Assembly: GCF_019655435.1 (NCBI RefSeq)
Contig: NZ_BPFH01000004.1
Coordinates: forward strand, 248,001 to 312,000
Direction: 5' to 3'
From: Jannaschia pagri
GTDB lineage: Bacteria; Pseudomonadota; Alphaproteobacteria; Rhodobacterales; Rhodobacteraceae
DNA: 64,000 nt
Notes under the pieces: generated by a model
Database searches by the model: none
The model's input: the letters and a program-made list of their open reading frames with translations, nothing else
Told to the model about the DNA's origin: nothing
Made by a program: the position numbers and the translations under genes
In this document: positions 8,201 through 38,210 of the stretch, one piece after another
Layout: each line of letters opens with the position of its first letter
Position numbering within the stretch: position 1 is the first letter of the stretch

Positions 8201-8219
8201 CACGTCTTGAGGGATATGG

Positions 8220-9149: not shown

Positions 9150-9177
9150 CGCCGCCCTACGGATTGCCGTATCGCTT

Positions 9178-9193
9178 TTGCAACCGGTTGCAA
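9178..9193 (+). promoter_or_regulatory. Perfect 16-bp palindrome of LacI-family operator type
   Basis: TTGCAACCGGTTGCAA is a perfect 16-bp palindrome with central CCGG flanked by TTGCAA half-sites, the classical shape of LacI/GalR-family operators. It ends 11 bases before the dehydrogenase ATG and abuts the ribosome-binding site. No LacI-family gene is in the window, so the regulator must be encoded elsewhere. Confidence 0.75.
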
Positions 9194-9204
9194 GGAGGGG
9201 CGCC

Positions 9205-17205: not shown

Positions 17206-18352
17206 ACACCGTCGAGCGCCCCGTGTCGCGCTGATCCACTATTGGCTTGTTGGGATGCGCGGCGGGGAAAAGGTCCTTGAAGCGCTCTGTCGGATGTATC
17301 CGGACGCTGACATCTTCACCCATGTCGCCGATCGCGACGCCCTGTCTGACACCCTCCGTCGCCATACGATCCACGAAACATGGATTGGTCGGCTCCCTGC
17401 GGCGCGCCGGTTGTATCAAGCCTACCTCCCGCTGATGCCGCGCGCGTTAGAGGGTTTGGATTTGAGCGGCTATGATCTGGTAATCTCATCCGAGGCTGGT
17501 CCCGCAAAGGGGGTCATCGTGCCGCCGGATGCGTTCCATCTGTGCTACTGCCATTCCCCGATGCGCTACCTCTGGGATCAGTATCATGTCTACCGCGCGG
17601 GGACGGGATCGGTGCAACGGGCAGCCATGTCTGTTTTTGCCCATGGTCTCCGCCAGTGGGATGTGACGTCTGCGGCGCGGGTCGATGCATTTGCCGCCAA
17701 TTCCCACCATGTGGCGGACCGCATCAAGAAATACTGGCGGCGCGATGCCAGCGTCGTGCATCCGCCCGTCGCCGTCGAAGACTTCGCGCCTGTCCCACCG
17801 GCGGAGGTCGGCGACAGCTATCTTTGGCTTGGCGAGTTGGCGCCCTACAAACGGCCAGACATGGCGGTCGAGGCGTTTAACCGCCTCGGTCTGCCACTGA
17901 CGGTGATCGGCGGGCCGCAAAAGACGGTGGACCGTTTGGCGGCGGAGGCAGAGCCGAACATCACCTTCCTTGGAAAGACGGATTTCGACACGCTGCGCGA
18001 TCACCTGTCGCGCTGTAAGGCATTGATTTTCCCCGGCGAGGAAGACTTCGGCATTGTTCCCGTTGAGGCCATGGCGGCTGGGCGACCCGTGATCGCCTAT
18101 GGGCGCGGCGGGGCCTGCGATACGGTTGTGGAGGGGCAGACAGGCTTGCTGTTCCCCGATCAATCGGTCGAGGATTTGGTCGCTGCCGTCCTCAAGTTCG
18201 AGGCGTCGCACTTGGCGCAGGCCCCGTCCGAGGCCCTGGTGCGCCACGCGGCGGGCTTTTCGGAAGATGTGTTCCGACAGGGGATCCGAGCGCTCCTGCC
18301 GCCGCACTTGCGGGATGCCGAGGCGCCCATGCGCCTTGCTGGCTCCGCTTGA
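17198..18352 (+). CDS. Family 4 glycosyltransferase
   Basis: The 384-residue protein has the GT-B fold of GT4 enzymes: N-terminal ALIHYWLVGMRGGEKVLEAL, a YLWLGELAPYKRPDMAVEAF donor-domain start, and the EX7E motif in PGEEDFGIVPVEAMAAGRPVIAYGRGG. It transfers a nucleotide-activated sugar to a lipid-linked acceptor at the membrane. Its start overlaps the Wzc-like gene by 8 bp, so the two are translationally coupled. The sugar is unknown. Confidence 0.88.
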   Translation: MPEHRRAPRVALIHYWLVGMRGGEKVLEALCRMYPDADIFTHVADRDALSDTLRRHTIHETWIGRLPAARRLYQAYLPLMPRALEGLDLSGYDLVISSEAGPAKGVIVPPDAFHLCYCHSPMRYLWDQYHVYRAGTGSVQRAAMSVFAHGLRQWDVTSAARVDAFAANSHHVADRIKKYWRRDASVVHPPVAVEDFAPVPPAEVGDSYLWLGELAPYKRPDMAVEAFNRLGLPLTVIGGPQKTVDRLAAEAEPNITFLGKTDFDTLRDHLSRCKALIFPGEEDFGIVPVEAMAAGRPVIAYGRGGACDTVVEGQTGLLFPDQSVEDLVAAVLKFEASHLAQAPSEALVRHAAGFSEDVFRQGIRALLPPHLRDAEAPMRLAGSA

Positions 18353-18355: not shown

Positions 18356-19057
18356 GTGCCTGATGCGCCCGTTCGCCTTTACGTTTGGCATCTAACGTCA
18401 CCCGATGAGGCGACCGCGCTGTCGGCTCACCTATCGGACGCTGAACTGGCGCAGGCCCGCCGGTTTGTGAAGCCGGCTGATGGGGTGGCCTATCGTCTGG
18501 GTCGGGGTCGGATGCGCGAAATCCTAGGGGCTTGGGTTGGCACGGACCCTGCTGCGCTCTCGTTTGTCGTGGGACCGTCGGGGAAGCCCTGCCTCTGTCC
18601 CGGACCGCACTTCAACTTGAGCCATTCCGGCGGTCTCGCCTGCCTTGCGGTTCATCCCAACATGCCCCTGGGCGTGGATATCGAGGCGCCCCGCCCGGTG
18701 GAGCCATCCGTGGCGCGTCGCTTCTTTTCCGCCGCAGAACAAAAGGATCTGTCGGCGCTCCCCCAGACAGAATGGCGGGAGGGGTTCTTTCGCTGTTGGA
18801 CGCGCAAGGAGGCGGTGGTGAAGGCGCTTGGCCTCGGCCTGGGCGCCGATCTCGCTGCGTTCGATGTCACCCTCGCGCCTGGTCATCCCGCCGCCGTGAC
18901 GCGTTGCGATCTCGAGTCTGCTCAGGATTGGAGTCTGACTCACTTCGAGCTGACCCCGGGCTGGATTGGGGCCCTGGCAATGCCCGGGCGCAAGGAGCGA
19001 CCCCGTATCGAAGTCGCCCTATGCCCCCCAGACGTCGACATTCACTGCGGGGCGTGA
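18356..19057 (+). CDS. 4'-phosphopantetheinyl transferase, Sfp type
   Basis: The 233-residue protein has the Sfp-type signatures LGVDIEAPRPV (magnesium-binding Asp and Glu) and FFRCWTRKEAVVKALGLGL (W-x-x-KEA-x-x-K). It also has the FNLSHSGG motif. It would transfer phosphopantetheine from CoA to the carrier-domain Ser residues of the adjoining NRPS-PKS proteins. The start is GTG at 18356, 3 bp after the glycosyltransferase stop, in the same operon as the polysaccharide genes. Its end overlaps the convergent C-T-TE gene by 16 bp. This physically joins the polymer operon to the assembly line. Confidence 0.93.
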   Translation: MPDAPVRLYVWHLTSPDEATALSAHLSDAELAQARRFVKPADGVAYRLGRGRMREILGAWVGTDPAALSFVVGPSGKPCLCPGPHFNLSHSGGLACLAVHPNMPLGVDIEAPRPVEPSVARRFFSAAEQKDLSALPQTEWREGFFRCWTRKEAVVKALGLGLGADLAAFDVTLAPGHPAAVTRCDLESAQDWSLTHFELTPGWIGALAMPGRKERPRIEVALCPPDVDIHCGA

Positions 19058-21696
19058 CGCGCCAAGAAGGCATCCATAGTCTCGGCAAAACTCTCGATCC
19101 CCGTCCGGGAAATTTCCGACAGGACCACCTCGGGCATCCAATGGGTTTCCAGTTTGTCCGGTGCCACAACATCTTCCCAGCCCATGGAGGTCTTCCAAAG
19201 CCGCCCCCGTGGCGTGATCGGTGTGATCACATGGAGCACGGGAAAATCGATAGGCTCGGGCCGGTAACGGTCCCGCGCGCGCGACATCCGAGAGATGAAA
19301 CGCTCCATCTCCGCTTCCATGTCGGTCCATTGGGTATGTTCGATCAGGCGCAGGCGGTGCAGCGCCCGGATGACGCCCGTGCGATGGAAAATGCCGTAGC
19401 TGCCCAAAAGCGCTGCGGTCGATAGGTGGCCCGACCGCCAGTCCTTGAGACGCAGGCGCAAGGCGAACCATCGATCTTGCGACCGCAGGCGCCGGTCTGA
19501 GTGGACCTTTTGGGCAAAGCGCGGCTCCCACACGTCGCGCATGGCGACACCTGCGATGGTCTCCCCTTCGGATTGCAGGATGCGGGCGGCTTCCAACGCC
19601 AGGTTGCCGTGCACGCAATTGCCATAGAGCAGGTACGGCCCCCGAGGTTGCGCTTGACGCACCCCATCGGCACAGCGTCGGGCCACCTCCAGAAAGTCCG
19701 TATTTTCGTCCAGGGCTGACGTGATTTCGAACAGACGAACGCAGGAGATCGGTCTGTCTTGCCCCGGCAACGTCGACAGGGCGACCGCCGTCGCGGCGTT
19801 GTTCACGGCCACAAACGGTTGCCCGGGCCCATCCCGGCGCAGCCGCATGATCCCCGGTTCATCGCCCGTTGTCGCAACGGGCGGCGCAAGCGGCGGGGCG
19901 GTGCGCGACACCAAAGCGGCCAATCCACCCAGGGTAGGGGTTTCGTATAGGTCGATAAGCGTCACGGGTGCGGACCACCGGTCGCGGATCCTGGCCAACA
20001 GACGGATGGCCAGCAAAGAATGGCCGCCCAGGTCGAAGAAATGCGCATCCGCAGGCAAGGTCTCCGTCCCCAAGACCTCGGACCACATCTCCGACATTTC
20101 CGTGAGTGTGTCTTGGCTCGCGTGCCCGGTGACCGGCCCGGGAAGCTGCTGAACAACGCTGATCGCTGTGATCTGTCCCGCAAGCGTGTCTGACAGATCT
20201 GACATCAGGCGCCCTGGCAAGGTTTCCAGCGGAAAGCTCCCGGTTTGGGCGGGTGTGACGTAGGCTTGGGACCCCGTCACGCAGGCGGTCTCCACCATGG
20301 GATGGCCGGTCAGAACGGCTACGGAATCCACGGTCGGCTGGTCTGTCGGGCGACCTTTGGTCAGGTCAGCGACCGGGGTCTCCGGCTTATCGAGGGAGAG
20401 ATGGAGCGCCGCCACGGTCTGCGCCAGCACATCCTCCGCCGTGGCCCCATCATAGAGCGTAGCGTCATATTCCAGCACGATCTGCCAGCCATCAGGCCGT
20501 TCCATCACGGCCAAATCCAAGTCGTTGATCGCCGCCGGCGCGTGGGACGCCGTCGACCGCAGGGACATCTCCCCCGAGGTGCGCGACTCCATGAAAACGG
20601 TCTGCAAGCCAAAGTTGATGGAGGTGAAGGGGGGCTGTCCCGGGCGTCGAGCCGGGTTCAACTCGGCCACCATGTGATCAAAGGGCAATTGTTGATGGGC
20701 CAGTGCGCCCTCGACCACGGGGCGCGCGGCGGCGATCAATGCGGCAAGGCTCTGGGTCGGCTCCACCTCGAAGCGGAGGACGAGGTTGTTGATGAACATC
20801 CCGATCAGCGGCTCAAGCTCCGGCTCGATCCGGCCCGTGGATTGTGTGGTCATCAGGATGTCGCGGATGCCCGTGCGCGCGTGCAGGACGGCCGCGAAGA
20901 CTGCGGCGCCATGGGTGAACGGGGACACGCCGGCTTGACGTGCCGCGGCCCGCAATCGCGCCCCGAACCCCGGCGGCAGGTCGTGGGAGACGGTGGCGAT
21001 CTGACGTCCAGTGCGGACATTGCGGGGGCGATCCCCGGGCAGCTCGAATGGTGCGGCATCCTGCAACTGCTTGCGCCAATACGCCCGTTCAGGGTCGAGC
21101 GCGCCGGTCGCGGACAGCTCCGCCTGCCACAGGCAATAGTCGCCATATTGCAGCGGCAATGGCGGCAAATCGTCGAAGGTTCCGTCCAAGGCCGCCCCGA
21201 TCTCCCGGCCCAAAACCCCGATGGAGGCGCCATCGAAACAGCGGTGATCCACGACAAAACACAGCACCGCGCGTGTCCCGCTCAACCGGATCAACGTGGC
21301 GCGGATCAGACCTGGTTGGCGCGCGTCAAACGGGTCTGCCGCGGTTTCCCGGGCAATGGTCTCGATCCGCTCCTGCTGATCCACGTCGGGGACGGGCCGC
21401 AAGTCGACGGTCGAGAATTGGAACGGCGCATCTTGATGGACGCGCTGCACGGGCGTTCCATCGGGCGCGACGAAGGAAGACCGCAGAATCTCATGTCGAG
21501 CGATGACCTTGCGGAAGGCTTCTGCGATGGCGTCCCCGTTGATTTGGCCCTCCAGCGACCATCGCACGGCCACGTTCAGAACCGGCGCGCCAGGGTCGGC
21601 TTCGGCCATGATCCAGCAGCGCGTCTGACCGGCGCTGAGCGGAAAGGTAGCCAGGATCTCGCTCGCGGCCGCAGGCGTGGGTTGCGTCGGGCTCAT
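19042..21696 (-). CDS. NRPS termination protein: C - relic A - T - TE with Cys nucleophile
   Basis: The 884-residue protein has four regions. A condensation domain (about 15-435) carries DHRCFDG at 150-156: the catalytic second His is present, but the first is Asp. Residues about 455-530 resemble the C-terminal subdomain of an adenylation domain (GHPMVETACVT, AYVTP), but the NGK lysine motif is gone and there is no A core. A carrier domain follows (FFDLGGHSL, Ser560). An alpha/beta-hydrolase thioesterase (about 615-884) has YGNCVHG where GxSxG is expected, so the nucleophile would be Cys694, with candidate partners Asp721 and His852. It overlaps the upstream NRPS-PKS gene by 4 bp. It should accept the final intermediate and release the product, probably by cyclisation or hydrolysis. 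What loads its carrier domain is not evident. Confidence 0.85.
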   Translation of the reverse strand: MSPTQPTPAAASEILATFPLSAGQTRCWIMAEADPGAPVLNVAVRWSLEGQINGDAIAEAFRKVIARHEILRSSFVAPDGTPVQRVHQDAPFQFSTVDLRPVPDVDQQERIETIARETAADPFDARQPGLIRATLIRLSGTRAVLCFVVDHRCFDGASIGVLGREIGAALDGTFDDLPPLPLQYGDYCLWQAELSATGALDPERAYWRKQLQDAAPFELPGDRPRNVRTGRQIATVSHDLPPGFGARLRAAARQAGVSPFTHGAAVFAAVLHARTGIRDILMTTQSTGRIEPELEPLIGMFINNLVLRFEVEPTQSLAALIAAARPVVEGALAHQQLPFDHMVAELNPARRPGQPPFTSINFGLQTVFMESRTSGEMSLRSTASHAPAAINDLDLAVMERPDGWQIVLEYDATLYDGATAEDVLAQTVAALHLSLDKPETPVADLTKGRPTDQPTVDSVAVLTGHPMVETACVTGSQAYVTPAQTGSFPLETLPGRLMSDLSDTLAGQITAISVVQQLPGPVTGHASQDTLTEMSEMWSEVLGTETLPADAHFFDLGGHSLLAIRLLARIRDRWSAPVTLIDLYETPTLGGLAALVSRTAPPLAPPVATTGDEPGIMRLRRDGPGQPFVAVNNAATAVALSTLPGQDRPISCVRLFEITSALDENTDFLEVARRCADGVRQAQPRGPYLLYGNCVHGNLALEAARILQSEGETIAGVAMRDVWEPRFAQKVHSDRRLRSQDRWFALRLRLKDWRSGHLSTAALLGSYGIFHRTGVIRALHRLRLIEHTQWTDMEAEMERFISRMSRARDRYRPEPIDFPVLHVITPITPRGRLWKTSMGWEDVVAPDKLETHWMPEVVLSEISRTGIESFAETMDAFLARHAPQ

Positions 21697-24600
21697 GCGC
21701 CACCCCCTTGTCCGCCGCGCCGCGCGCCACCACGGAAGGCGCTCAGCTTTGGCTTGGAGGGGGCGGTCCCGGACGCCGCGCGCGCATCATGATGGGCCGC
21801 CAGCGCGCGCACGGATGGGTGTTCGAAGAGATCACGGGCCTCAAGCTCCAGCCCCTCGGCCAGCATCCGCGCGGCGAGACGGAAAACCGTCAGGCTGTCG
21901 GCGCCCAGGTCAATGAGCGTGGCAGTCACGTCAGAAATGTCACGGTTCAACACTTCGGACCACAGGGCCGTCAGCCGCCGCTCCGTTTCGGTCGCGGGCG
22001 GGTTGCCCGTTTCCACGGCACGCGGGGTGGCCTCGGGCGCGGGGAGGGCCCGGCGGTCCAGCTTGCCGTTGGCCGTTTGGGGCAGGGCGTCCAAGGCCAT
22101 CCACGCCGTTGGGATCATATAGTCGGGCAAATCGCGCGCCAGCGCCTGTGCCAACGCCGGGCCGTTCAGGTCGCCAACGACGTAGCCCACCAGCTTCGCG
22201 TCCCCATTTGCGCCTGTTTGCAGGGCGACGGCGGCCCGTGCTACGCCTGGTTGCGCGCGCAGGGCGGTTTCGATTTCTCCCAGGTCAATTCGGAAGCCGC
22301 GCAGCTTCACCTGCGCGTCCCGGCGGCCCAAAACTTCGACCTCACCGGTCGGCGTCAGGCGCGCAAGGTCGCCCGTTGCATAGAGCCTGCGCATATCACC
22401 ATCCAAAGGCATTTCACGGAAGGCCGCCGCAGTCTTCTCCGGCTGCCCGGCATAGCCAATGGCCAGACCCGCGCCGCCGATGTTGAGCTCCCCAACGACG
22501 CCGGTGGGACAAGCCCGACCGTTGTCATCCAGAATATGCAACGTCGTGCGCGCAATCGGTCCGCCGATGGTGATCGGACCACTGCCCGTCACATGTTTCA
22601 CCGCCGACCAGATCGTCGTTTCGGTCGGACCATAGAGGTTCCAGACCGTGGCCCCCGTTGCCAGCAGGTCCCGCGCCAGATCGCTTGGCAGTGGTTCTCC
22701 GCCCGTCCACGCGCGGAAGTGTAGTGGGGGCGTCAGACCTGCCGTCAAAAGGATCGACCAGAGGGTCGGTGTCGCCTGCATGACCGTGATGTCGCCCCGG
22801 TTCACCCGGTCAGCCAGTTGGAAGCCGTCGATCACCTCGTCCGAGGGGGCGACAACGACAGTCGCACCCGCCAGCAGCGGGCCAAACATCTCAAGGATGG
22901 AGATGTCAAACATGGCTGTGGTCACGGCCAAGAGGCGATCCTCGGCGGCGAGCCCCGGCGTCTCGATCATCGACGTCAGTAGGTTCGTCAGCGCGCCGTG
23001 GGGGATTTCGACCCCCTTCGGCTGGCCCGTCGACCCAGAGGTATAGATGACATAGGCCGGATGCGAGGCGGTGACCGTTGTTGGCGCGGGCGTCGCAGGA
23101 TCGATTGCATCAGGTGTGATCACAACGCGCCTAGAAAATCGGCCCGGCTGATCTGTGATCACAGCGCTCGGCTTGGCATCGTCCAAGATTTTGATCAGGC
23201 GCCCGTCCGGTTGTTTGGGGTCCAGCGGTACGAAGGCGCAACCAGCCCGCAGAACACCGAGCAACGTGGGGATCAGGTCGCCCCCCCGTGGCAGGCTCAC
23301 CGCAACCCGGCCCTGGATGCCTTGCGCCTGCAAACGCGCCGCAACGGCCCCGCTCCGCGCCCAGAGGTCCGCATACGTTTGGGCACCCTCACAGGTTTCA
23401 ATCGCGGTCTTGTGGGGTTGCGCGGCACAAACCTCGGCCAAGCGGCCCATCATGGGGGCAAGGTCCCCGTCATCCATGGGTGCTTCGTCGTTCGTCTCAA
23501 AGGACGCGGTCAAAGGCAGACCGGAGATCGCGGCGTCCGGCGTTTGCGCCATCGCGACAATCAGCGCCTCATAGCTCCGGGCCCAGGTCCTCACCGTCTC
23601 GGCGTCAAAGAGATCGGTCGCGTAATGCGCCTCGATCCGGAGACCCGCATCCGTGGACACGAGGTTGAAGAACAGATCGAAGGTGACGGCGGCCTTGCCG
23701 TTTGCTTCGAAGTCGGCGGCAAGACCGGGCCAGGTCAGATCGGCCGGTTCCTCCAGATTGAACTCGATCTCCGTCAGGGGCAGACGGTCAAGACGGCGCG
23801 GCACCTGGGCGGCCTCTAGGATTTGGCTGAATGTTAGGCCGTCGTGGTCCAGGGCGGCAAAAACCTGATCTCTCACCGACGTCAGATGATCGCTCGCGGA
23901 TGCCATCGGATCAGCGCCGCTGCGGATCGGGAGCAGGTTCACGCAATGGCCGACGAGGTCCATGGGCGCCGTGCTCTGTTGTGCGGCTGTGGGCACCCCG
24001 ATTGTCATATCCGTTGCACCAGAGAGCCGATGGACGAGCGTTTGCATGGCTGCGAATGCCGCCGTGAAGAGTGTGCATCCGTGGCGCGCCCCAAACGTCT
24101 TCAGGTCCTCAACCAGTTGACGCGGGATCTCATGCACGACGGTCGCGCCGGGACGATCAGCGCACATCTTGCGCGGGCGATCGGTCGGCAGTTCCGCCAA
24201 GGGCGGCGCGTCGGAAAAGGTCTCTTTCCAGAACGCGCGGTGATCCGCTGGCGGGGCGGCAATGCGGCGCGCGTGATCGGCGAAGGCGGGTGCCTCCGGC
24301 AAATCGGCCGGGGTGCCCTGGCGCGCGGCCCCGTAAAGCGCGGCCAGATCATCCAGGATCAGGCCGAACGACCAGCCATCAAGCACGATGTGATGTGCAG
24401 TGATAACAAGGGCATGTCGGGCGTCGTTCATCTCGAACAGGCGGACACGGATGGGGGCGGCATCGGTCAGATCGAAGGGCGTCTCCGCCTCTTCGGCGAG
24501 GGCCGCATCAAGGGTGTCGCCGGGTTCAACGGGCAGGGTGAGCTGCGGGCCATCCGCGACGGTGAAGCCCGACCCGTCCCGCGCGAACCGCAGGCGGAGC

Positions 24601-27600
24601 GCATCGCGCCGCGCGATCAGCTGGCTCACCGCCGTCTCTAGGGCTGCTCGGTCGAGGTCCCCCTCCAGATAAAGCGTCCCACTCTCGTTAAACGCCACCG
24701 CTGACAGACCACCCAACTGGTGCCGCATCCAGATTTCGCGCTGGCTGGGCGTCAGAGGGATCGGCCGGGTCGCTGGCGTCAGGGGTGGGGCATCGGACCG
24801 CCGCACCTCCGCCAGGATGCCAGTGGCAAGCAGGGTGTCCAGCGCGGATTCAAAGGCCTCGACCACGCGGTCCACCTCCGCCTGCCCGTGCTCTGTCGTG
24901 AGGAACCAGCAGAACCCGTCCATCACATGCACACCCGCCAGACGCATCAGCGGGTAAAGCAGCGTGGCGCGGGGGTCTTGTTCGGTCAGGTCCACGACCA
25001 ACCAGGAGGAGTAGTCCTCGATCACATCTGGCAGACCACGGACCTCCAGGGCCGCGCGCATCCGTTTGGCCATTTGCGACAGCAGCTTAGGCGTCTCAAC
25101 CCAGAGCCTGTCACCCGCCTCGGCCATGTGGTCGAGCGTGGCTTCCACCGCCGCCAGAACCAGCGGGTGCCGCACGAAGGTGCCAGCGACAAAGGTCGGC
25201 ATCGCCTCCGGTCGGCTGTCGTCACCATATTGCCAGCTGCCGCCATCCAGCGCGTCCATGTATGCGGCCGCACCCGCCACGACACCGATGGGGAGGCCGC
25301 CGCCCACCACCTTTCCGTAGATCGCCATATCCCCTTGCAGGCCCCAAACGCCCTGCATCCCGCGCGCGTCCGTGCGGAAGCCGGTGACGACTTCGTCGAT
25401 GATGAGGGCCGTGTGAACGTCGTCCGTCAGGGCCTTGATATCACGCACGAACTGCTCGGGTCGCGTGGCTGGATAGCGGCTGCGGACTGGTTCGATCAGA
25501 ACAGCCGCCAAGTCATCGAGGTTGTCGCGGATGTAGTCCAAGGCTTCGGCGCTGGCGAAGGGCAAAACGACCACATTGCCAAGGGCGCCCCGGGGAATCC
25601 CGGGCGCGGAGGGAAGCGCACCGGCCTTGGCGCCGGGCTTAACAAGCACCTCATCGTGTTGGCCGTGGTAGGACTTGTCGAACAGAACGACCTTCTCGCG
25701 ACCCGTGGCCGTGCGGGCGGCGCGGACGGCGGCGATGACGGCCTCGGTCCCCGTGTTGCAGAAACTCACCCGCTCGTGCCCAACGGCCCTGGCGAATTTC
25801 TCTGCCAAAGGACCTGCGCGCTCGGCTTGTGGACCGAGGGCATAGCCCAACTCAAGCTGTCGGGCGACCGCCGCGTTCACGAAATCCGGGGAATGGCCGA
25901 ACGCCGTTTGGCCAAAGCCGTTGACCAGATCCACCAGATCATTGCCGTCCAGGTCATGGATGTAGGCGCCCTTGGCCCGTTTGGCGACAATGGGAAAGGC
26001 CAGTTCCTTCCAATCCGCGTGAAACCCAGCAGCGGTTCGTGGATCCGCCAAGACCGGGCGATGGGCGTCGGTATAGGCTTTGGAGCTGGGGAACTTTGCT
26101 GAGTATCGCTCCGCCAGATCACGGGCGAAGACGCGCTGGTCGTCGGTCAACTCCGCATTGGAAATCATCTTGATCCGACGACCACCGCCCTCGGGCTTCG
26201 GCGTTGGCGCGACCTTCTGCGTATCTGGCGGAAGGGCAACCGGAGCCGGGGCCGCAGCGGAGGGGACGGCGGCGGCGGTGGCCGGTGCCGCGCCCAACGC
26301 CGCCAATTGTTGCGTAAACAGGGCCTGCATCGTCGCCATCTGCGCCTGCATGACGGTGCCGAGATCGCCGCTCACCGCTGGTATTTGTGCTGGGGCTGTG
26401 GGGACGACCGCCGGTGCCACGGCGGCGGGTGGCGCGACGGTTGCAGCGGGCTCCGGCGCGACAGCGGGGGAAGCGCTTGGGTTTTCGCTCAGGATGAAAT
26501 CCGCCAGCAGGCGCGGTGTCCCCAGGTCCGTCGTCAGACGGCGAAAGCCAAACTGGACCTTGAACGTGCGCGCGATCTCTTGCGTCAACTGGCCCAAGAA
26601 AAGCGAGTCGAGCCCAAGTTCCAGGAAGGTCACCTCCGCATCGGCTGTGGACACCTCCATCCCCGACATATCGCTGATGGTATCGAGCAGTTGGGGCAGA
26701 ACAGTCGGCGCGGTTTGGGTCATGGGGGCACTCGGAACGTCAGTAACGGAAGGAGAAGGGGCGTCATGGGCGGCTGGCGGATCCACCCAGCAGCGGCGCC
26801 TTTGGAATGGATAGGACGGCAGGGGTACCTTTCGGGCGTCGGGCGAGACCCCGTCGGACAGATCGACGTCTAGCCCCGCTGCCCAAAGGCGCAGCGTGGC
26901 CTGTGCCAAGACCTCCGGCGCTGTGTCGGCCTGGGCCGGGTCCGGCAAGCTGGGCACGGCGGTCACATAGCTGTCGGGTGCCAATGTTTGGGCGGCCAAG
27001 GCCGTCAAGGTGCGGCCAGGGCCGACCTCCAGAAGGGCTCGTGGACCGTCCCTCTGGGCCAGCGTCTCTAGCGCAGCGTGGAAATCCACGCAGGCGCGGG
27101 CTTGATTGGCCCAATAGGCGGGATCGGTGGCCTGCGCCTCGGTCAGGATGTTCCCGGTCACCGTGGACAGGATGGGGCGGTCAGGCGCCCGCAGGGGCAT
27201 GTCCTGCGCGACGGCCAAGAGGTCAGGCACCACGGCGTCCATCATCTGGGAATGGAACGCATGGGAGGACCGGAGGCGACGGTACGACAGCCCAGCCTGG
27301 CTCAGGCGTGTTTCGAAGGCGTCTAACGCGGCCGCTGGTCCCGCAACCACCTGCTGATCCGGGGCGTTGCGCGCGGCCAGGTCCAGCGTATCGTCCAGGA
27401 GCGGAAGCAGTTCCTCCGGGCGGGCAGTCACGGCGGTCATGCCGCCCGGGGCCTGCGCTTGCATAAGCGCACCCCGCCGCGTGACGAAGTACAAGGCATC
27501 GGGCAGGGCCATGACCCCAGCCAAGACCGCGGCGGCCAATTCCCCAACGGAATGCCCGATGAAGAGGTCGGGTTCAGCGCCCCGCGCTTGCCACAGACTG

Positions 27601-30600
27601 GCGAGCGCGACTTCGGTCAACAGCAGGCTCGGCTGCGCGAGGCGGGTTTGGGCCAGCGTCCGCGCGGCGTCTTCAAAGGGACCCTCTGGGCGGAGGAGCA
27701 GCCCGCGCAGCGTGTCGGAAAGGTCATCCGCCAACAGCGATAGCCCCTCGTCCAAGGCGTCCGCGAAGTGTGGCTGCGCGGCATAGAGGGCGGCGGCCAT
27801 ACCAGGGTACTGCGCGCCTTGTCCGGGGAGCAGTGCCACAAGACGGGGTGCCTTTGCCGCCGTTGTGGAACCGCGCATTCGGCGCAGGGCCGTGGCGGCG
27901 GTCTGGGGCGTTCGGGCGACAACGCCCGCGCGGTGAGGCCATATGCGTCGACCGGATTGCAGCGTTCTGGCGACATCCTGCAAGTCCAGGTCCGGCGCCG
28001 CGTCCAGCGCCTCGGCAAGATCGCTGGCCATTGCGGCGAGGGCTTCGGGCGTTTTGGCGGACAGAGGCAGGGCGACTGGGGCGTCGGGCCTCTGCCGCTC
28101 CGGCAGATCCGGCGCGGCGCCCAAGACCACGTGCGCGTTGCTGCCGCCGACGCCAAAGGCGCTGACACCCGCGCGCCGGTCGTCGCCGGTCCAGGGCTGT
28201 GGCGCGGTCGGCACGGTAAAGCCGCTACCCGACAGGTCAATTTTGGGATTGATGCGTCGATGGTGCGCGATCGGCGGGATCATTCCCCGCTCCAGCACCA
28301 GCGCCGTCTTGATCAGCCCGATGATACCCGCCGCCGCGTCCAAATGGCCCGTGTTGCCCTTGACCGCGCCTAGGGCACAGGGCGTGTCAAACGGGCCGAA
28401 CGCTTGCTTGAGGCCCGCAATCTCAACCGGGTCACCCAAGGGCGTCGCAGTGCCGTGGCATTCCACGTAGCCGATGTCGTGCGCGGTGACGCCTGCGTCT
28501 CGGTGGGCCTCCGTGATGGCTTCGGCCTGGCCGGTAACCGAGGGCGCGGTGTAGGACATGCCCCTGCCACCGTCATTTCCGAGGCCGGTGCCCTGGATCA
28601 CCGCATGGATCGTATCGCCCTCGGCCAGGGCATCCGACAATCGTTTCAGCACCACGACACCCGCACCATCGCCGAACACCGTTCCGTTGGCATCGGCATC
28701 GAAGGGGCGGCATGTGCCGTCGAGAGAGACCATGCCCCCTTCCTGTGCCAAATATCCGCGCCTTTGGGGGAACGTGATCGAAACGCCCCCGGCAAGGGCC
28801 GCATGCAGCCGTCCGGCGCGCAGGGCCTCGACCGCTTGGATGACTGCGACCAAGCCAGTGGAACAAGCCGTTGTCACGGAAAGGGCGGGTCCCGTCAGGC
28901 CCAGCTTTTGCGCCGTGCGAGAGGGGATATCGTCCCCCACATTGCCCGCCAGGTTCGTATAGTCGATCTGAAACCCGGATGTGAAAGCGCGCCGTTCCGT
29001 GTCGTCCGTCAGAAGGTTTTCAAGCAGATACGTGGACATGGATGACCCGGCAAACAGCCCGACGCGCCCAGAGGTGCGGGTTGGGTCAAGCCCTGCGGCG
29101 TCCAATGCCTGTTGGCAGACCTCTAGGAAAATGCGGCCCTGGGGATCGATGCGCGCGGCCTCGGCGGGTAACATCCCAAAGAAGGCCGGGTCGAACTGAT
29201 CCACGTCCCGCAGGATGGCACGGGCAGGAACGTAGTCAGGGCGCGCACGGGTGGCTGCATCAAAGGTGTCGGTCAATGCGTCGGGCGCGAACCGCTCAAC
29301 CAGGCCGCGACCTTCAACGATGACGTCCCAAAATCCATCAAGTGTTGTGATCCCGCCGGGCAGCCGTGCGGCCATGCCAACGATTGCGATGGCGGTGTCG
29401 TCGGTTGGTTTGGGCGCATCCTGCGGGTGCTGGTCGGGGCTTTCGCTGAGGCGTGCCGCCAGGTCGCCCAGACGGGGCACGTCGAACATCAGAGCGATAT
29501 CGAACGGGCTGTCGAGGCTGGCCTCCATGCGGGCATGGGCCTCGATCAATTGCAAAGATGTGCCGCCCAGGTCGAAGAAGCTGTCTTCGTCGCGCGGCGT
29601 CTGGCCCAACAGATCCCGCCAGATGGCGGCAATCTGACCACGGACATCCGAGGTGGCTCTGTCCTGCGCAAGCCGTGGTGCCTCCAGCCGGTCGCGCAAG
29701 GCCGCCCGGTCGATTTTGCCGTTCTTGGTCAGTGGCATGGCGTCCACGGCGATAAGGCGGCGGGGAAACACATGGGGATGAATGTCGCGCAGTTCAGCTC
29801 TGAGCAGCCTCTCCACCGCCTGAACATCCTGCGAGGGATCCGCCCGTTGGACGAACGCCACGAGATGTGTGCCAGCCCCAGCCCCCGACGGCTCCACCAC
29901 GGCTTCGATCAGGGTGTCGGACGCGCGGAAAGCGGCTTCGATCCCATCTAGCTCCACCCGGCGACCGGCGATCTTGCACTGCCGATCTTCGCGACCGTGG
30001 AACAGAAAAACGCCATCGGCCCGGCGCGTCGCCAGATCCCCTGTGCGATAGACCAACCCGTCCTCTCCGGAACGCGGATCGGGGATGAAGGCCGCGGCGG
30101 TCAACTCCGGCCGATTGTGATAGCCCAACGCCAAGCCGGCACCGCCTATGGCCAAGATGCCTTGGGTGCCGTCCGGCACCGGGCGGTTGTCGGTGTCCAG
30201 CACGATGGCCCATTCGTTGGCCAAGGGCGTTCCGATGGGAACGCTTGTCGCCGCCAAGTCGGAGCGCGTGACCACATGGGCGAGGCTCGCGATGCAGGTT
30301 TCGGTCGGTCCGAACTCGTTGACGACCGTTACCGATGGGCAGGCATCGAGCAACTTTTCGACGCGCGACGGAGATATGGACTCGCCGCCAGTCAAGATCA
30401 GACGCAGGGGGCCGAGCGCCTTTGGGTCGACGTCGATAATGAGGTTCAAGAGGCCGGTGTAGATCGGCAGGACCGTCGCATTGTGGTCGGTAATGGCCTG
30501 ACGGAGAACCGAGACCGACACCGGGTTTGCCCCGACGACGGCCACCTGGGCCCCGCGGATGAGGGCGCCGAACACCTCGGGCAGCATACCGTCACAGGCG

Positions 30601-31184
30601 GGTGTGGAGGTATGGAGGACGACGTCGTCCGTGCCCACGGCCAAGTCGCCGGGTCCGAACTCATAGCTTGTGACGGCCCGGTGGGGGATGCGCACGCCCT
30701 TTGGCCGCCCTGTGGTGCCTGACGTGTAGAGTAGGAATGCGGCCGCGTCGGACGAGACCTCGCGATTGGCGCCGCGATCGTCGTTGCTATCGGCGGTCTC
30801 ATTGGTCTGGATGACGGTCAGGTTCGGGGCTTGGTCCCGGGCGGCCTCCGCCAAGTCTGGCGATGTCACGACGACATGAACGCCCGCGTCTTGCAGGATG
30901 AAGTCCGTCCGCTCCGCCGCAAAGTCGGGGTCCAGTGGCACCGCGGTTGCGCCCGTCGACAGAACGGCCAGCATGGCGACTACGGTGTCCGCCGACCGAC
31001 CGCCATAGACCGCAACGGCGTCGCCGGGTGCCACGCCCGCTTGTCTTAATGCAGCCGCCAGCGTGCCCGTCCGATGGTGAAGGGTCGCACGGGTGTATGT
31101 GGTATCCCCGTGTCGTAGGGCGACCGCCTCGGGCCGCGGAGCGGCCTGGGCCGCGATGGCCCCGTGGATTGTTCCACCGATCAT
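21693..31184 (-). CDS. Hybrid NRPS-PKS: A-T-KS-AT-T-aminotransferase-C-A-T
   Basis: The 3163-residue synthase has these domains, numbered from the ATG. A1 is about 12-500 (LLYTSGTTGRPKG, Asp198, TKNGKID). T1 has Ser543. KS is 595-1025 (Cys774, His910, His947 all present). AT is 1114-1420 (GHSVGE, Ser1212; HAFHS at 1308-1312 indicates malonyl-CoA). T2 has Ser1527. An Ala/Pro/Gln linker is followed by a class III aminotransferase, 1675-2125 (IIDEVVTGFR, PLP Lys1958). C is 2140-2560 (HHIVLDG at 2264). A2 is 2575-3050, with code D-I-L-Q-W-G-L-I-W-K, close to glycine. T3 has Ser3097, before a basic tail. No ketoreductase is present, so the beta-keto group should go straight to transamination. ATG 31184 follows GAGGG; a TTG at 31208 is the alternative. 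The layout matches iturin-type synthases. Confidence 0.93.
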   Translation of the reverse strand: MIGGTIHGAIAAQAAPRPEAVALRHGDTTYTRATLHHRTGTLAAALRQAGVAPGDAVAVYGGRSADTVVAMLAVLSTGATAVPLDPDFAAERTDFILQDAGVHVVVTSPDLAEAARDQAPNLTVIQTNETADSNDDRGANREVSSDAAAFLLYTSGTTGRPKGVRIPHRAVTSYEFGPGDLAVGTDDVVLHTSTPACDGMLPEVFGALIRGAQVAVVGANPVSVSVLRQAITDHNATVLPIYTGLLNLIIDVDPKALGPLRLILTGGESISPSRVEKLLDACPSVTVVNEFGPTETCIASLAHVVTRSDLAATSVPIGTPLANEWAIVLDTDNRPVPDGTQGILAIGGAGLALGYHNRPELTAAAFIPDPRSGEDGLVYRTGDLATRRADGVFLFHGREDRQCKIAGRRVELDGIEAAFRASDTLIEAVVEPSGAGAGTHLVAFVQRADPSQDVQAVERLLRAELRDIHPHVFPRRLIAVDAMPLTKNGKIDRAALRDRLEAPRLAQDRATSDVRGQIAAIWRDLLGQTPRDEDSFFDLGGTSLQLIEAHARMEASLDSPFDIALMFDVPRLGDLAARLSESPDQHPQDAPKPTDDTAIAIVGMAARLPGGITTLDGFWDVIVEGRGLVERFAPDALTDTFDAATRARPDYVPARAILRDVDQFDPAFFGMLPAEAARIDPQGRIFLEVCQQALDAAGLDPTRTSGRVGLFAGSSMSTYLLENLLTDDTERRAFTSGFQIDYTNLAGNVGDDIPSRTAQKLGLTGPALSVTTACSTGLVAVIQAVEALRAGRLHAALAGGVSITFPQRRGYLAQEGGMVSLDGTCRPFDADANGTVFGDGAGVVVLKRLSDALAEGDTIHAVIQGTGLGNDGGRGMSYTAPSVTGQAEAITEAHRDAGVTAHDIGYVECHGTATPLGDPVEIAGLKQAFGPFDTPCALGAVKGNTGHLDAAAGIIGLIKTALVLERGMIPPIAHHRRINPKIDLSGSGFTVPTAPQPWTGDDRRAGVSAFGVGGSNAHVVLGAAPDLPERQRPDAPVALPLSAKTPEALAAMASDLAEALDAAPDLDLQDVARTLQSGRRIWPHRAGVVARTPQTAATALRRMRGSTTAAKAPRLVALLPGQGAQYPGMAAALYAAQPHFADALDEGLSLLADDLSDTLRGLLLRPEGPFEDAARTLAQTRLAQPSLLLTEVALASLWQARGAEPDLFIGHSVGELAAAVLAGVMALPDALYFVTRRGALMQAQAPGGMTAVTARPEELLPLLDDTLDLAARNAPDQQVVAGPAAALDAFETRLSQAGLSYRRLRSSHAFHSQMMDAVVPDLLAVAQDMPLRAPDRPILSTVTGNILTEAQATDPAYWANQARACVDFHAALETLAQRDGPRALLEVGPGRTLTALAAQTLAPDSYVTAVPSLPDPAQADTAPEVLAQATLRLWAAGLDVDLSDGVSPDARKVPLPSYPFQRRRCWVDPPAAHDAPSPSVTDVPSAPMTQTAPTVLPQLLDTISDMSGMEVSTADAEVTFLELGLDSLFLGQLTQEIARTFKVQFGFRRLTTDLGTPRLLADFILSENPSASPAVAPEPAATVAPPAAVAPAVVPTAPAQIPAVSGDLGTVMQAQMATMQALFTQQLAALGAAPATAAAVPSAAAPAPVALPPDTQKVAPTPKPEGGGRRIKMISNAELTDDQRVFARDLAERYSAKFPSSKAYTDAHRPVLADPRTAAGFHADWKELAFPIVAKRAKGAYIHDLDGNDLVDLVNGFGQTAFGHSPDFVNAAVARQLELGYALGPQAERAGPLAEKFARAVGHERVSFCNTGTEAVIAAVRAARTATGREKVVLFDKSYHGQHDEVLVKPGAKAGALPSAPGIPRGALGNVVVLPFASAEALDYIRDNLDDLAAVLIEPVRSRYPATRPEQFVRDIKALTDDVHTALIIDEVVTGFRTDARGMQGVWGLQGDMAIYGKVVGGGLPIGVVAGAAAYMDALDGGSWQYGDDSRPEAMPTFVAGTFVRHPLVLAAVEATLDHMAEAGDRLWVETPKLLSQMAKRMRAALEVRGLPDVIEDYSSWLVVDLTEQDPRATLLYPLMRLAGVHVMDGFCWFLTTEHGQAEVDRVVEAFESALDTLLATGILAEVRRSDAPPLTPATRPIPLTPSQREIWMRHQLGGLSAVAFNESGTLYLEGDLDRAALETAVSQLIARRDALRLRFARDGSGFTVADGPQLTLPVEPGDTLDAALAEEAETPFDLTDAAPIRVRLFEMNDARHALVITAHHIVLDGWSFGLILDDLAALYGAARQGTPADLPEAPAFADHARRIAAPPADHRAFWKETFSDAPPLAELPTDRPRKMCADRPGATVVHEIPRQLVEDLKTFGARHGCTLFTAAFAAMQTLVHRLSGATDMTIGVPTAAQQSTAPMDLVGHCVNLLPIRSGADPMASASDHLTSVRDQVFAALDHDGLTFSQILEAAQVPRRLDRLPLTEIEFNLEEPADLTWPGLAADFEANGKAAVTFDLFFNLVSTDAGLRIEAHYATDLFDAETVRTWARSYEALIVAMAQTPDAAISGLPLTASFETNDEAPMDDGDLAPMMGRLAEVCAAQPHKTAIETCEGAQTYADLWARSGAVAARLQAQGIQGRVAVSLPRGGDLIPTLLGVLRAGCAFVPLDPKQPDGRLIKILDDAKPSAVITDQPGRFSRRVVITPDAIDPATPAPTTVTASHPAYVIYTSGSTGQPKGVEIPHGALTNLLTSMIETPGLAAEDRLLAVTTAMFDISILEMFGPLLAGATVVVAPSDEVIDGFQLADRVNRGDITVMQATPTLWSILLTAGLTPPLHFRAWTGGEPLPSDLARDLLATGATVWNLYGPTETTIWSAVKHVTGSGPITIGGPIARTTLHILDDNGRACPTGVVGELNIGGAGLAIGYAGQPEKTAAAFREMPLDGDMRRLYATGDLARLTPTGEVEVLGRRDAQVKLRGFRIDLGEIETALRAQPGVARAAVALQTGANGDAKLVGYVVGDLNGPALAQALARDLPDYMIPTAWMALDALPQTANGKLDRRALPAPEATPRAVETGNPPATETERRLTALWSEVLNRDISDVTATLIDLGADSLTVFRLAARMLAEGLELEARDLFEHPSVRALAAHHDARAASGTAPSKPKLSAFRGGARRGGQGGGA

Positions 31185-31435
31185 ACAACGCCCTCGGTCC
31201 GCATCCAAGCGGCACGGCCACCACGGTCGGTGCAGGGGGGCAGGGGCAAAACGAACGGCATAATTGCTTATATCCTAACATAGTCGTGCCGGTACTGGAC
31301 GCGTAGGCGGCGACCAAACGGCACACGTTTGCGTAGGGTAGCCATTAAATCGGGCCAGAATTGGCCACGTCGGGGCCTTTAGCGTCAACGATCTATCAAA
31401 AAACGGATGAATGGTCACCGGGAGGGGACATTCGG
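31185..31435 (-). promoter_or_regulatory. AT-richer leader between methyltransferase and NRPS-PKS, probable promoter region
   Basis: This 251-bp gap separates two genes on the same strand and includes a terminator-like hairpin near the methyltransferase stop. A locally AT-rich stretch at about 31261-31290 (reading TATGTTAGGATATAAGC on the minus strand) is the most promoter-like part. No clear -35/-10 pair and no lux-box-like palindrome were identified. The NRPS-PKS gene is therefore probably transcribed on its own. Confidence 0.35.
31398..31433 (-). terminator. Probable intrinsic terminator after the methyltransferase gene
   Basis: On the minus strand GAATGTC (31427-31433) pairs with GACCATTC (31409-31416), allowing one bulge. 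A T-run follows (six A residues at 31398-31403 on the plus strand). It begins 3 bp after the methyltransferase stop. Confidence 0.45.
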
Positions 31436-32227
31436 TCACGCGCCCATGCGCGGTCTGAGGACAAAGCCCCAGCTTTCACTCTCACCGTGCTGTGGGTGCG
31501 TCGGGATCCGGTGGCCCAAGTCGTAGATTTGCCAGCGATCCACGACCTCATACCCCAGCGCTGAGAGTTCAGCGCGCCAGTCGTCCCAACTGCGGATCTG
31601 GTATGGCGTCTGAACGGGGCCCAGACGTTCTAACGTGAACAGAGCCGGACCGTGGCGCAGCGCCACCTTGTTGAGCAAGATCGCGGCGGGGCGCTCGGGC
31701 AGGGCGTCCACAAGCTCCGTCAGGGAAATGTCCAGGTATTGCAGCAGACCGGAAGCCAACAGGATGTCGGTCTCAGGCAAAGCGGTCAGATCATCCACAA
31801 AGCGCAGGTCGCTGGGCAGGGTGCCGGCGATTTGGGACTTCTGGGCTGCGCCGATGATGGCTGGTGTGTCGTAGACGGTCCATTGTGCGCGGTTAAGGTC
31901 GATCAAATCGGAAAAGGCGATGTATTTCGTACCCATATGGCCGCCCGCGTCCAGAACGCGGGACCCGTTTGGCAGCAGCCGATCCAACCAATGGAGGAGG
32001 GGATAGTCCCAGACCTCCCGCTGGCACATCTCGGGGAAAGACACCTCAGCCGCGGCTGGGTCATTGTACCCGCGACCGCCGCTTGGGGGGATTGCCGCAA
32101 GGGCCGCCGTGCGGTTGCTATAGGCGCCTGAAAAGCGCGGCGCGCGGCCCAGTCGAACGCTCAAACGTGCGCCCATGGCCCGCGCGACATCGCGCAGCCG
32201 CCGCAGGGTCCGCCGAAGCCCGCCCAT
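31436..32227 (-). CDS. Class I SAM-dependent methyltransferase (TIGR04325-like)
   Basis: The 263-residue protein has the SAM-binding motif SRVLDAGGHMGTKYIAF, then QWTVYDTPAII and DILLASGLLQYLDISL, the pattern of methyltransferases found in surface-polysaccharide loci. ATG 32227 was chosen because it lies 4 bp after the flippase stop with GAGAAG upstream. The target could be a sugar of the repeat unit or the NRPS-PKS product. Its transcription with the flippase gene favours the polysaccharide, but the point is open. Confidence 0.72.
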   Translation of the reverse strand: MGGLRRTLRRLRDVARAMGARLSVRLGRAPRFSGAYSNRTAALAAIPPSGGRGYNDPAAAEVSFPEMCQREVWDYPLLHWLDRLLPNGSRVLDAGGHMGTKYIAFSDLIDLNRAQWTVYDTPAIIGAAQKSQIAGTLPSDLRFVDDLTALPETDILLASGLLQYLDISLTELVDALPERPAAILLNKVALRHGPALFTLERLGPVQTPYQIRSWDDWRAELSALGYEVVDRWQIYDLGHRIPTHPQHGESESWGFVLRPRMGA

Positions 32228-32231
32228 CTTC

Positions 32232-33713
32232 TCAGGCCTCCGCCGTGGGCGCGCGCCCGCGGCCCGTAAGCCGCGTCCATAGCTCGGGCGCGAAGACGGC
32301 CAGCGCAGCGGCATAGGCGATCATCGCAACCATGCCTTCAAGAATGGCGGCGACGAGCGAGGGAAGCCCACCAAAGGTGCCCAGACCCATATCCGCCAGC
32401 AGGAGCGCCGCGACCCCAATTGTGAGGGGGCCAATGACGCGCCGTAGATCCGATATGATCTCGCTCGCCCCCACATCGGCAAACCGGCGGAACAACCACA
32501 CCGTCACGCCCAGAAGGACTGCTGCTGCGACGATCTGTGCCCATGCGACCGCATATAGGCCGAAGGGAACAGCCGCCAGCGTGGCGATCACGGTAACGGC
32601 GAGGGTCGCCAACGACAGCTTTGGCAACTGCTTGGATTGGTCCAACATGGATAGCAGCGGCTCAATGGCGATGCCAAAGCTGCCGAGCAACCGCGCCACA
32701 GCCAGCAGCAGCACCAGGGGCACGGCGGGCAGCCATTCCGACTTCAAGAGCGTTTCGATAAGCGCATCGCTTGCAACCATCAGCCAGACAAAAACGGGTA
32801 CGCTAATCGCAACCAACAGGGTCAGAAACAGCCGCAACTGGGCGCGCAGCCGGTCGTTGTCCGGCGCTTCGGTGTCGGCGTCGCGCGCCTGTTTAAACAG
32901 CGCCCAACCTAGCATTTGGGCCGGAACGGCGATGACTTCGGTCACGGCCCCCACAAGCCGCTCGGCCACGCGGTAGTATCCGACCTCCTCCGGGCCAAGG
33001 GCGCCGCCAACGATAAAGGTGGCCACATAGAGGCGGATGTTCGAGAGCATGCGACTGAAAAAGAAGTGCTGCGAGAAGACCCAAAGATCGGCGAGCATCT
33101 TCCCTTCGAAGCCGAAGCCAGGCGCGGTGCGGGTCACCACAAAGCTGATCGTCAGATGTGTGATCTGATAAGCCAGCCGTCCGAACACAATGGACAAGAT
33201 CCCCCAACCCGCAAGCAACGTCGACAGGGATACGGCGAGCCCGGCCAACTCGCCCAAGATCTCGCAAACGGCCGAGGATCTCAGGGATTTCTGCCAGATC
33301 ATCATGCCCTTTTGTGCCGAGGACACCGTGGCCAAGACGATCCAGAGACTAAACAGCTGGACGAGAACAACGATCTCCGTGTCCAACCCCCAGATTGAGA
33401 TGCCGGAGGACGCCACGAGGCCGATCAAGCCGAAGAGCACACCACAGATGATCGAGAGCGTGAGCACGCGGCGGGGCACCTGAACATCCCCGGCCCAGCA
33501 CATGATATAAGGGGCCCATCCGCCTTCGGACGCCCGAAACAACAGGATCGCGCAGGCCGAGACCAGTGCGTAGATGCCGAAATCCGCCGGACCCAGGATG
33601 CGAGCGGCTACGACAAAGACGGCGAACTGACAGAACTGAGCGATGATGCGCTCCGCTGCGGTCAGTGCCCCGGCGCCGACCAGTTTCTGGGCTTTTTGAT
33701 CTGTCTCAGACAC
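32232..33713 (-). CDS. Oligosaccharide flippase family protein (Wzx-like)
   Basis: The 493-residue protein has 12-14 predicted membrane segments. Its N-terminus resembles MOP-superfamily polysaccharide transporters (ALTAAERIIAQFCQFAVFVVAARILGPADFGIYAL), including the ARxLGPADFGxYxL signature. It would flip an undecaprenyl-diphosphate-linked repeat unit to the periplasm for the Wzy-like polymerase at 13352. It is the first gene of the minus-strand set and is divergent from the ExoY gene. Confidence 0.85.
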   Translation of the reverse strand: MSETDQKAQKLVGAGALTAAERIIAQFCQFAVFVVAARILGPADFGIYALVSACAILLFRASEGGWAPYIMCWAGDVQVPRRVLTLSIICGVLFGLIGLVASSGISIWGLDTEIVVLVQLFSLWIVLATVSSAQKGMMIWQKSLRSSAVCEILGELAGLAVSLSTLLAGWGILSIVFGRLAYQITHLTISFVVTRTAPGFGFEGKMLADLWVFSQHFFFSRMLSNIRLYVATFIVGGALGPEEVGYYRVAERLVGAVTEVIAVPAQMLGWALFKQARDADTEAPDNDRLRAQLRLFLTLLVAISVPVFVWLMVASDALIETLLKSEWLPAVPLVLLLAVARLLGSFGIAIEPLLSMLDQSKQLPKLSLATLAVTVIATLAAVPFGLYAVAWAQIVAAAVLLGVTVWLFRRFADVGASEIISDLRRVIGPLTIGVAALLLADMGLGTFGGLPSLVAAILEGMVAMIAYAAALAVFAPELWTRLTGRGRAPTAEA

Positions 33714-34004: not shown

Positions 34005-34706
34005 ATGCCGATTACAGTTTCTGCTAAGTCTGCCGACCTGCGTCGGTTCAAAACCCGCGCGGCTCTTCCCTCGCTGACACGCCAGAAGGAGCGCTTGGCT
34101 GATTTCGCCAAGGTGTTCCTGGACCGCGCGACCGTGGGGCTCGGTCTTCTTGCTATCGCCCCGCTCCTCCTCGTCATAGCGGCTGTCATCTTGATCCTGG
34201 ACGGGCGGCCCATCTTCTTTGGACATGAGCGTGTCGGGCGCGAAGGCAAGTCTTTTAAGTGCTGGAAATTCAGAACCATGGTTCGGAACGCGGAGGAAAG
34301 GCTGCAGTTTGTACTGGAGAACGACCCAAAGGCGCGGGCGGAGTGGGAGGAGACCCAGAAGCTGAAAAACGACCCCCGCATCTTGCCGTTTGGCCGTGTG
34401 CTTCGCGACCTCTCCATCGATGAACTGCCGCAGCTCTGGAACGTCCTCCGCGGGGATATGTCCCTGGTCGGTCCGCGTCCTGTGACCCGTGGCGAGTTGG
34501 CAAAGTATGGACCCGACAGAACGTCGTATTTGGCGGTTCGTCCTGGCCTGACCGGAGAGTGGCAAGTGAGCGGTCGTAGTTCCGTCTCCTTCGAAGAGCG
34601 TGTCGCGATGGATGTCGAATATGTGGCAAAACGAAGCCTTGTGCGCGACCTGACCATCTTGCTCCGCACCCCAGCGGTCGTAGTCAAGAAAACGGGCGCG
34701 TGCTAG
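34005..34706 (+). CDS. exoY: Undecaprenyl-phosphate sugar-1-phosphate transferase (ExoY-type)
   Basis: The 233-residue protein has one N-terminal membrane segment (TVGLGLLAIAPLLLVIAAVILIL) and the bacterial sugar transferase domain: GRPIFFGHERVGREGKSFKCWKFRTM, LRDLSIDELPQLWNVLRGDMSLVGPRP and VRPGLTGEWQVSGRS. It starts repeat-unit synthesis by moving a sugar-1-phosphate to undecaprenyl phosphate. Its short length and sequence fit ExoY rather than the five-helix WbaP type. It is the first gene of the plus-strand operon that continues with two glycosyltransferases and an acyltransferase. Confidence 0.9.
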   Translation: MPITVSAKSADLRRFKTRAALPSLTRQKERLADFAKVFLDRATVGLGLLAIAPLLLVIAAVILILDGRPIFFGHERVGREGKSFKCWKFRTMVRNAEERLQFVLENDPKARAEWEETQKLKNDPRILPFGRVLRDLSIDELPQLWNVLRGDMSLVGPRPVTRGELAKYGPDRTSYLAVRPGLTGEWQVSGRSSVSFEERVAMDVEYVAKRSLVRDLTILLRTPAVVVKKTGAC

Positions 34707-38106: not shown

Positions 38107-38210
38107 CGGGCGTGTTCGCTGCCTGGGCAAGCCAATTGCCACGTCTCTCCGAACGATATGACCGCGCGCAGCCTTCCCTCGGCGTGCCTCAGACCTGTGA
38201 AAGTTATTCC

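Follow-up and report, generated by a model that had tools for sequence, protein, structure and literature searches.

A PKS-NRPS assembly line with a predicted amino acid start within a polysaccharide locus of Jannaschia pagri

The window analysed here is a stretch of 64,000 nucleotides from Jannaschia pagri (contig NZ_BPFH01000004.1, positions 248,001 to 312,000), and its subject is a hybrid polyketide synthase-nonribosomal peptide synthetase (PKS-NRPS) encoded on the reverse strand in frame 21693-31208, which is uninterrupted from the ATG at 31184 to the stop at 21693 and specifies 3163 amino acids (aa). Pfam recognizes two AMP-binding and three PP-binding domains together with ketoacyl-synthase, Acyl_transf_1, Aminotran_3, and Condensation, and in combination with motif reading gives the order adenylation (A1)-carrier (T)-ketosynthase (KS)-acyltransferase (AT)-T-aminotransferase (AMT)-condensation (C)-A2-T. 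Ketoreductase (KR), dehydratase (DH), enoylreductase (ER), and methyltransferase families are absent from the synthase (Pfam, E <= 0.001). The sequence of domains and the lack of a ketoreductase agree with the original prediction, made from the letters of this DNA, as does the AT motif HAFHS, which had been read correctly and which we take to be of the malonyl type. Also present are the KS motifs TACSTG, HGTA, and NTGH, the AT motif GHSVG, the pyridoxal phosphate (PLP) lysine of the aminotransferase in YGK, the condensation motif HHxxxDG, and the carrier serines. Two elements that had been missed earlier, a C-T-thioesterase (TE) partner protein and the polysaccharide locus in which both proteins are encoded, are the larger finding.

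The locus shares a flippase, an initiating sugar transferase, a Wzc-like protein, glycosyltransferases, and a pyruvyl transferase with exopolysaccharide loci of the Wzx/Wzy type, and differs from them in holding a complete PKS-NRPS line with its own 4'-phosphopantetheinyl transferase (PPTase; Table 1). Among the window genes run against Pfam (~1-55 kb, one open reading frame per place), the flippase is the sole export-type match, and the ABC transporter encoded at 6143-8168 belongs to an uptake type.

The same set of genes recurs in other genomes. A close aminotransferase (>= 52% identity) is found in 13 of 394 genomes of the family, the window's own included, and a class-level search of 385 genomes gives five matches at E <= 1e-90, with G000 and G667 as the two that fall in the window clade. 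Besides Jannaschia, plasmids of Rhodobacter, Loktanella, Rhizobium, Sinorhizobium, and Ensifer provide eleven further loci (11 of the 18 family-like plasmid matches H3-H20, leaving out H4, H7, H10, H13, H17, H18, and H19); within the plasmid collection, only Jannaschia sp. M317 matches closely at the DNA level. Named genomes contribute at least 77 loci. Regardless of locus, the C-T-TE protein is present (27 of 27), followed in frequency by the PPTase (25), Wzc/Wzz (24), the sugar transferase and the flippase (23 each), a Wzy-like protein (22), the methyltransferase (19), the pyruvyl transferase (16), and Wza/SLBB (13). These counts come from a tblastn table (16 markers, >= 60 bits, flanks of 17 to 80 kb per locus) that excludes G139, G091, and G022 (contigs < 6 kb), and the loci are partly non-independent (G006 and L153 have the same A1 code and thioesterase tail; L155/L156, L157/L158, and L159/L160 have the same A1 codes). 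The linkage is seen in both Rhodobacterales and Rhizobiaceae, with the gene order reshuffled and the set kept together, and is directly visible on the annotated plasmids of Jannaschia, Rhodobacter, Loktanella, and Rhizobium.

In 11 of 12 family genomes, a PF02397 sugar transferase is found at most 25 kb from the aminotransferase, versus none of the 7 genomes whose aminotransferase is more distantly related; in this comparison group G196 (64% complete) lacks PF02397 altogether, that of G120 is 35 kb away, and the contig of G295 ends near the synthase. Given a maximum of five of these genes in a ~4-Mb genome, one is estimated to fall within 25 kb by chance in a few per cent of cases. As a clean negative for the linkage, the comparison group is weakened by the linked loci L162 and L057 and by contigs that end near the synthase, such as that of G295. 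The synthases of these two loci (18-29 kb in L162, 10-21 kb in L057) are amino-acid-started and lie in polysaccharide loci, and both A domains of L162 have the code DALWLGGTFK. Curli-type genes were observed near the synthase in two cases (CsgG, CsgF, and CsgH at 2.7-5 kb in L152; CsgG/HfaB at 1-204 in L153).

The loading domain A1 had been proposed to accept an amino acid on the strength of an Asp at residue 198. Recomputed on GrsA numbering, with the code letters checked against structure 1amu, the A1 code is identical to the one read by eye, and the Asp is at the position given. As a marker of alpha-amino binding this residue is not diagnostic on its own, since two acyl-AMP ligases, L014 and G067, also have Asp in the Asp235 column, where it is part of their H-D-[MF]-G motif; Asp235 by itself was therefore rejected as proof of an amino acid substrate. 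The amino acid assignment follows instead from model scores and from the orthologues. On TIGR01733, the curated model of amino acid adenylation (cut-off 317.4 bits), A1 scores 347.5 bits and the A1 domains of three relatives score 333.9, 317.8 (just above the cut-off), and 409.8 bits, whereas the two controls, loading domains with the acyl-AMP ligase motif, fail: L014 reaches 448.4 bits on an acyl-AMP ligase model versus 168.4 on TIGR01733, and the matches of G067 are to acyl-AMP/CoA ligase models, with no TIGR01733 entry at E <= 1e-40. On these scores A1 does not group with acyl-AMP ligases, and that identity was rejected. Asp235 and Lys517 are retained in all 25 recovered orthologous A1 domains (14 and 11 in two sets), A1 being unrecovered in 2 of the 27 loci, L010 (contig edge) and G346. 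An amino acid start combined with beta-amination is predicted with high confidence.

Naming the A1 substrate failed, the code resembling Asn and Leu codes at some positions only. The closest code among the loci compared, and the only near one, is DGPPLGEIGK from Jannaschia. Elsewhere the A1 code varies widely, and includes DAFWLGGTFK in G667 and DALFLGAVFK in four Rhizobium loci, both of which resemble branched-chain amino acid codes (that of G667 Val-like). The eight variable positions of the code, compared across 12 orthologues, have a mean identity of 26.5% in A1 versus 41.4% for the whole domain; the corresponding positions of A2 are 79.4% identical versus 56.8% for the whole domain. Because the code positions diverge in A1 and are conserved in A2, the first residue of the predicted product appears to differ from strain to strain and the second to stay the same.

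A glycine-like A2 code (DILQ...WK) is found in 26 of the 27 loci, and DILQLGLIWK is the glycine code; on this basis glycine is very probably the second residue. The C-T-TE partner protein of the window has no adenylation domain, and its adenylation remnant is not significant in a direct search against A domains. Pfam, applied to four orthologues, shows an AMP-binding_C remnant between C and T in each of them, with scores above the cut-off for L012 and G007 but not for L009 and L008, and other orthologues have a linker of 66-76 residues at this site. The third-module A domain is intact only in G667, the relative that branches deepest in the tree, where its code (DILQLGMIWK) is one letter off that of the G667 A2, and it was not found in the other 26 loci. 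The genome of the window has two condensation domains, both in this locus, and in a search of that genome with A2 only two further matches (86 and 84 bits), taken for acyl-CoA ligases, come after A1 and A2. The simplest inference is that A2 now charges both T3 and the carrier of the partner protein (T4) with glycine; the presence of a second glycine in the product is an even prospect. The C-T-TE protein of G017 has an apparent additional carrier domain between C and T, as read by eye.

The closest solved relative of the aminotransferase is that of the mycosubtilin synthase MycA (6kfm, 334.8 bits, E 6.5e-99), and the next family is glutamate-1-semialdehyde aminomutase (169.8 bits). With MycA as nearest solved relative and the PLP lysine in place, the domain does not appear to lack the residues needed for its proposed role. 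When 68 aminotransferase domains are placed in a tree (67 of them from the loci, with MycA as the sole MycA-type reference), the 18 rows of the window's synthase group fall into one clade (100/100). A branch of moderate support (95/77) separates this clade and 13 other rows from the remainder; these 13 have amino-acid-type loading wherever it is determined, loading domains having been assigned for only part of the tree. MycA and two rows labelled as fatty acyl-AMP ligase (FAAL) belong to a 33-row set (99/98) on the opposite side that excludes the window clade; G196, which is amino-acid-loaded, is also on the MycA side, on a long branch. The description of the synthase as iturin-like holds for domain order and aminotransferase homology, but in this tree the window clade stands apart from MycA and the FAAL-labelled rows.

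Compared with MycA and ItuA (mycosubtilin and iturin), the synthase has in common the order KS-AT-T-aminotransferase-C-A-T, which we take to be that of MycA, the lack of a ketoreductase, and a homologous aminotransferase that keeps the PLP lysine. It differs in loading through an amino acid adenylation domain rather than an acyl-AMP ligase, in the separate clade of its aminotransferase, and in its position within a polysaccharide locus. More distant, amino-acid-loaded synthases of Aliiroseovarius, Tabrizicola, Pedobacter, and Xenophilus likewise have A-KS-AT-T-aminotransferase, with C-A in the same or a further frame, and loading codes of the A type. The second A code is VDW[LV]FSLADK, presumably beta-alanine-like, in L042, L053, L057, and G120 (first A codes DALWLGGTFK or DAFFLGCTFK), and other non-glycine codes occur in G144, G196, and L049. 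To our knowledge, no product has been assigned to the synthases of these four genera or to L042, L053, L057, and G120. Among the more distant synthases checked, some with short flanks, polysaccharide genes surround only L162 and L057. The synthase is a variant within the aminotransferase-containing PKS-NRPS kind, and its locus is undescribed in the open-licence literature searched, where titles and the starts of abstracts contain no such locus; the available portions of PMC13101523 and PMC4359443 likewise hold no description of one.

The thioesterase of the partner protein has a Cys and, 27 residues further, an Asp, and V in the column of the usual His, which is missing in 10 of 26 aligned thioesterases. 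Cysteine thioesterases of NRPSs are exemplified by SulM and ObiF1 (PMC11298585). The likeness to these consists in a Cys nucleophile within an NRPS thioesterase fold; unlike them, the window clade is without the usual catalytic His and has no Gln-Cys-Asn motif, so that their combination of Cys with Asp and His is not found in the window. Within the alignment, from which a length filter removed L151 (motif CVH), the thioesterases covary at three sites: the second residue past the Cys becomes His, the usual His is lost, and a His is gained in VLH. All three changes occur in 10 of the 26 thioesterases (19045-19779 and 25 relatives), and none of them in the other 16.

These observations suggest an assembly scheme, every chemical step of which is inferred from the domains. 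A1 would activate an alpha-amino acid and charge T1, KS-AT would add one malonate to give a 4-amino-3-ketoacyl thioester on T2, and the in-line aminotransferase would convert the ketone to an amine, yielding a 4-substituted 3,4-diaminobutanoyl chain to which C-A2-T3 would append glycine. The C-T-TE protein would then receive the chain, perhaps with a second glycine placed by A2 on the adenylation-less T4, and the cysteine thioesterase would release or transfer it. The peptide would be a building block or decoration of the polysaccharide and would be exported on the glycan, a route with which the flippase, as the only export-type match, is compatible. The likely product, with a probability of about 0.58 for the reading as a whole, is an amino-acid-derived beta,gamma-diamino acyl-Gly(-Gly) unit destined for a polysaccharide. 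Because the whole set travels with a flippase, sugar transferase, and Wzc locus, the peptide is most likely placed on the polysaccharide, and this attachment, which is derived from linkage, is judged slightly more probable than its absence. A wider and more tentative proposal is that Alphaproteobacteria contain conserved 'peptidyl-polysaccharide' loci, in which a dedicated PKS-NRPS line makes a vicinal-diamine peptide, its first residue varied between strains through A1, and the non-standard cysteine thioesterase hands this peptide to the glycan repeat unit. Together with the pyruvyl transferase, this would make a zwitterionic surface polymer with strain-specific identity. Assembly-line biosynthesis is known for secreted antibiotics and siderophores; if the reading given here is right, such lines would also supply substituents of a structural polymer on the surface of marine and root-nodule bacteria. 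The synthase would then provide 3,4-diamino acids by a direct enzymatic path, and chemical differences among biofilm polysaccharides would have a cause open to testing.

Several results weigh against this interpretation. In the one family genome that lacks the linkage (G346, contig C15 around 219971), the synthase has no recovered A1, only 3 of the 16 markers occur over 80 kb, and the nearest sugar transferase on the contig is > 100 kb away. L162 and L057, with the more distant aminotransferase (46% identity), are also in polysaccharide loci, and the polysaccharide association is not exclusive to the window clade. No evident peptide-to-glycan transferase is present in the locus, and Wza (PF02563) is absent from it, the two copies of the genome being on contigs C1 and C6. 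The A1 code matches no familiar amino acid code, the A2 code of G017 is a non-glycine code, and loading of T4 by another ligase is possible given the 86- and 84-bit matches. The main alternative is a free secreted small peptide (a signal, chelator, or antibiotic), the polysaccharide genes being neighbours in a co-inherited biofilm island. Twelve of the examined loci are on plasmid records and two (L152 and L153) lie near curli-type genes, which makes such an island plausible, and G346 has a synthase without polysaccharide genes; however, the linkage holds across two orders despite the reshuffled order, and among the window genes run against Pfam only the flippase is of an export type, the ABC transporter being of the uptake type. 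A free peptide is considered rather unlikely.

Less probable still is that A1 loads a non-alpha-amino acid (e.g., a hydroxy or aryl acid), which would lead to a plain beta-amino acid unit. The unfamiliar code, with Pro at two pocket positions and a near match only in Jannaschia, is consistent with such a substrate, but the window A1 keeps Asp235 and Lys517, as do all other recovered orthologues, and scores above the TIGR01733 cut-off. Decay of the window assembly line to the point of having no product could account for the lost third adenylation domain and the absent thioesterase His, and is very improbable in view of the single open frame of 3163 aa with intact motifs and of losses that are shared and tolerated elsewhere (third A domain absent in 26 of 27 loci, His absent in 10 of 26 thioesterases). 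A polysaccharide-bound diamino acyl-glycine unit remains the preferred explanation.

Table 1. Features of the assembly line and the surrounding polysaccharide locus (positions are those of the window)
Feature	Position	Strand	Remarks
Polysaccharide pyruvyl transferase	10458..11630	+	
Glycoside-hydrolase-like protein	11608..13278	-	signal-like N-terminus (by eye); weakly PslG-like
Multi-helix membrane protein, candidate Wzy-type polymerase	13352..14773	+	hydropathy
Wzc-like chain-length determinant / tyrosine autokinase	14989..17205	+	
Glycosyltransferase family 4	17198..18352	+	
4'-Phosphopantetheinyl transferase	18356..19057	+	beside C-T-TE gene, opposite strand
Partner protein C-(adenylation remnant)-T-TE	19042..21696	-	start overlaps synthase stop as ATGA
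Thioesterase	19045..19779	-	Cys in GNCVHGN (motif at 19623); usual catalytic His absent
T3 carrier domain	21792..21980	-	Pfam and motif
A2, glycine-like	22062..23378	-	code DILQWGLIWK
C domain	23490..24761	-	HHIVLDG
Class III aminotransferase domain	24804..26141	-	PLP lysine in YGKVVGGG; closest solved relative MycA 6kfm
T2 carrier domain	26460..26700 (approximate ends)	-	LGLDSL, motif at 26618
AT	26952..27830	-	GHSVG and HAFHS
KS with C-terminal extension	27927..29393	-	C-H-H triad intact
T1 carrier domain	29440..29650 (approximate ends)	-	LGGTSL, motif at 29570
A1 loading adenylation domain	29679..31184	-	ATG 31184; code DGPPLGEIAK; Asp235 equivalent is residue 198
TIGR04325-family methyltransferase	31436..32314	-	
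Oligosaccharide flippase (Wzx type)	32232..33713	-	
Initiating sugar transferase (Bac_transf)	34005..34706	+	
Glycosyltransferase family 2	34749..35624	+	at Pfam cut-off
Glycosyltransferase family 4	35621..36871	+	
Acyltransferase 3 family protein	36868..37929	+	

Two of the neighbouring proteins are less clearly assigned. The candidate Wzy-type polymerase (473 aa) has no Pfam or PDB match and a predicted model with a pLDDT (predicted local distance difference test) score of 48, and the best profile match of the glycoside-hydrolase-like protein, to PslG, is weak (E 0.0026). RNA families at 10-40 kb of the window gave no match above gathering scores. A 1641-aa protein with RTX calcium-binding repeats adjoins the locus (38112-43037, forward strand). 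At 4840-10206 on the same strand, a sugar-binding protein, permease, ATPase, Kelch/NanM-like protein, and Gfo/Idh/MocA oxidoreductase look like a set for sugar uptake and catabolism, and at 50643-55329, also on the forward strand, OpgC, MdoG, and a glycosyltransferase represent periplasmic glucan genes.

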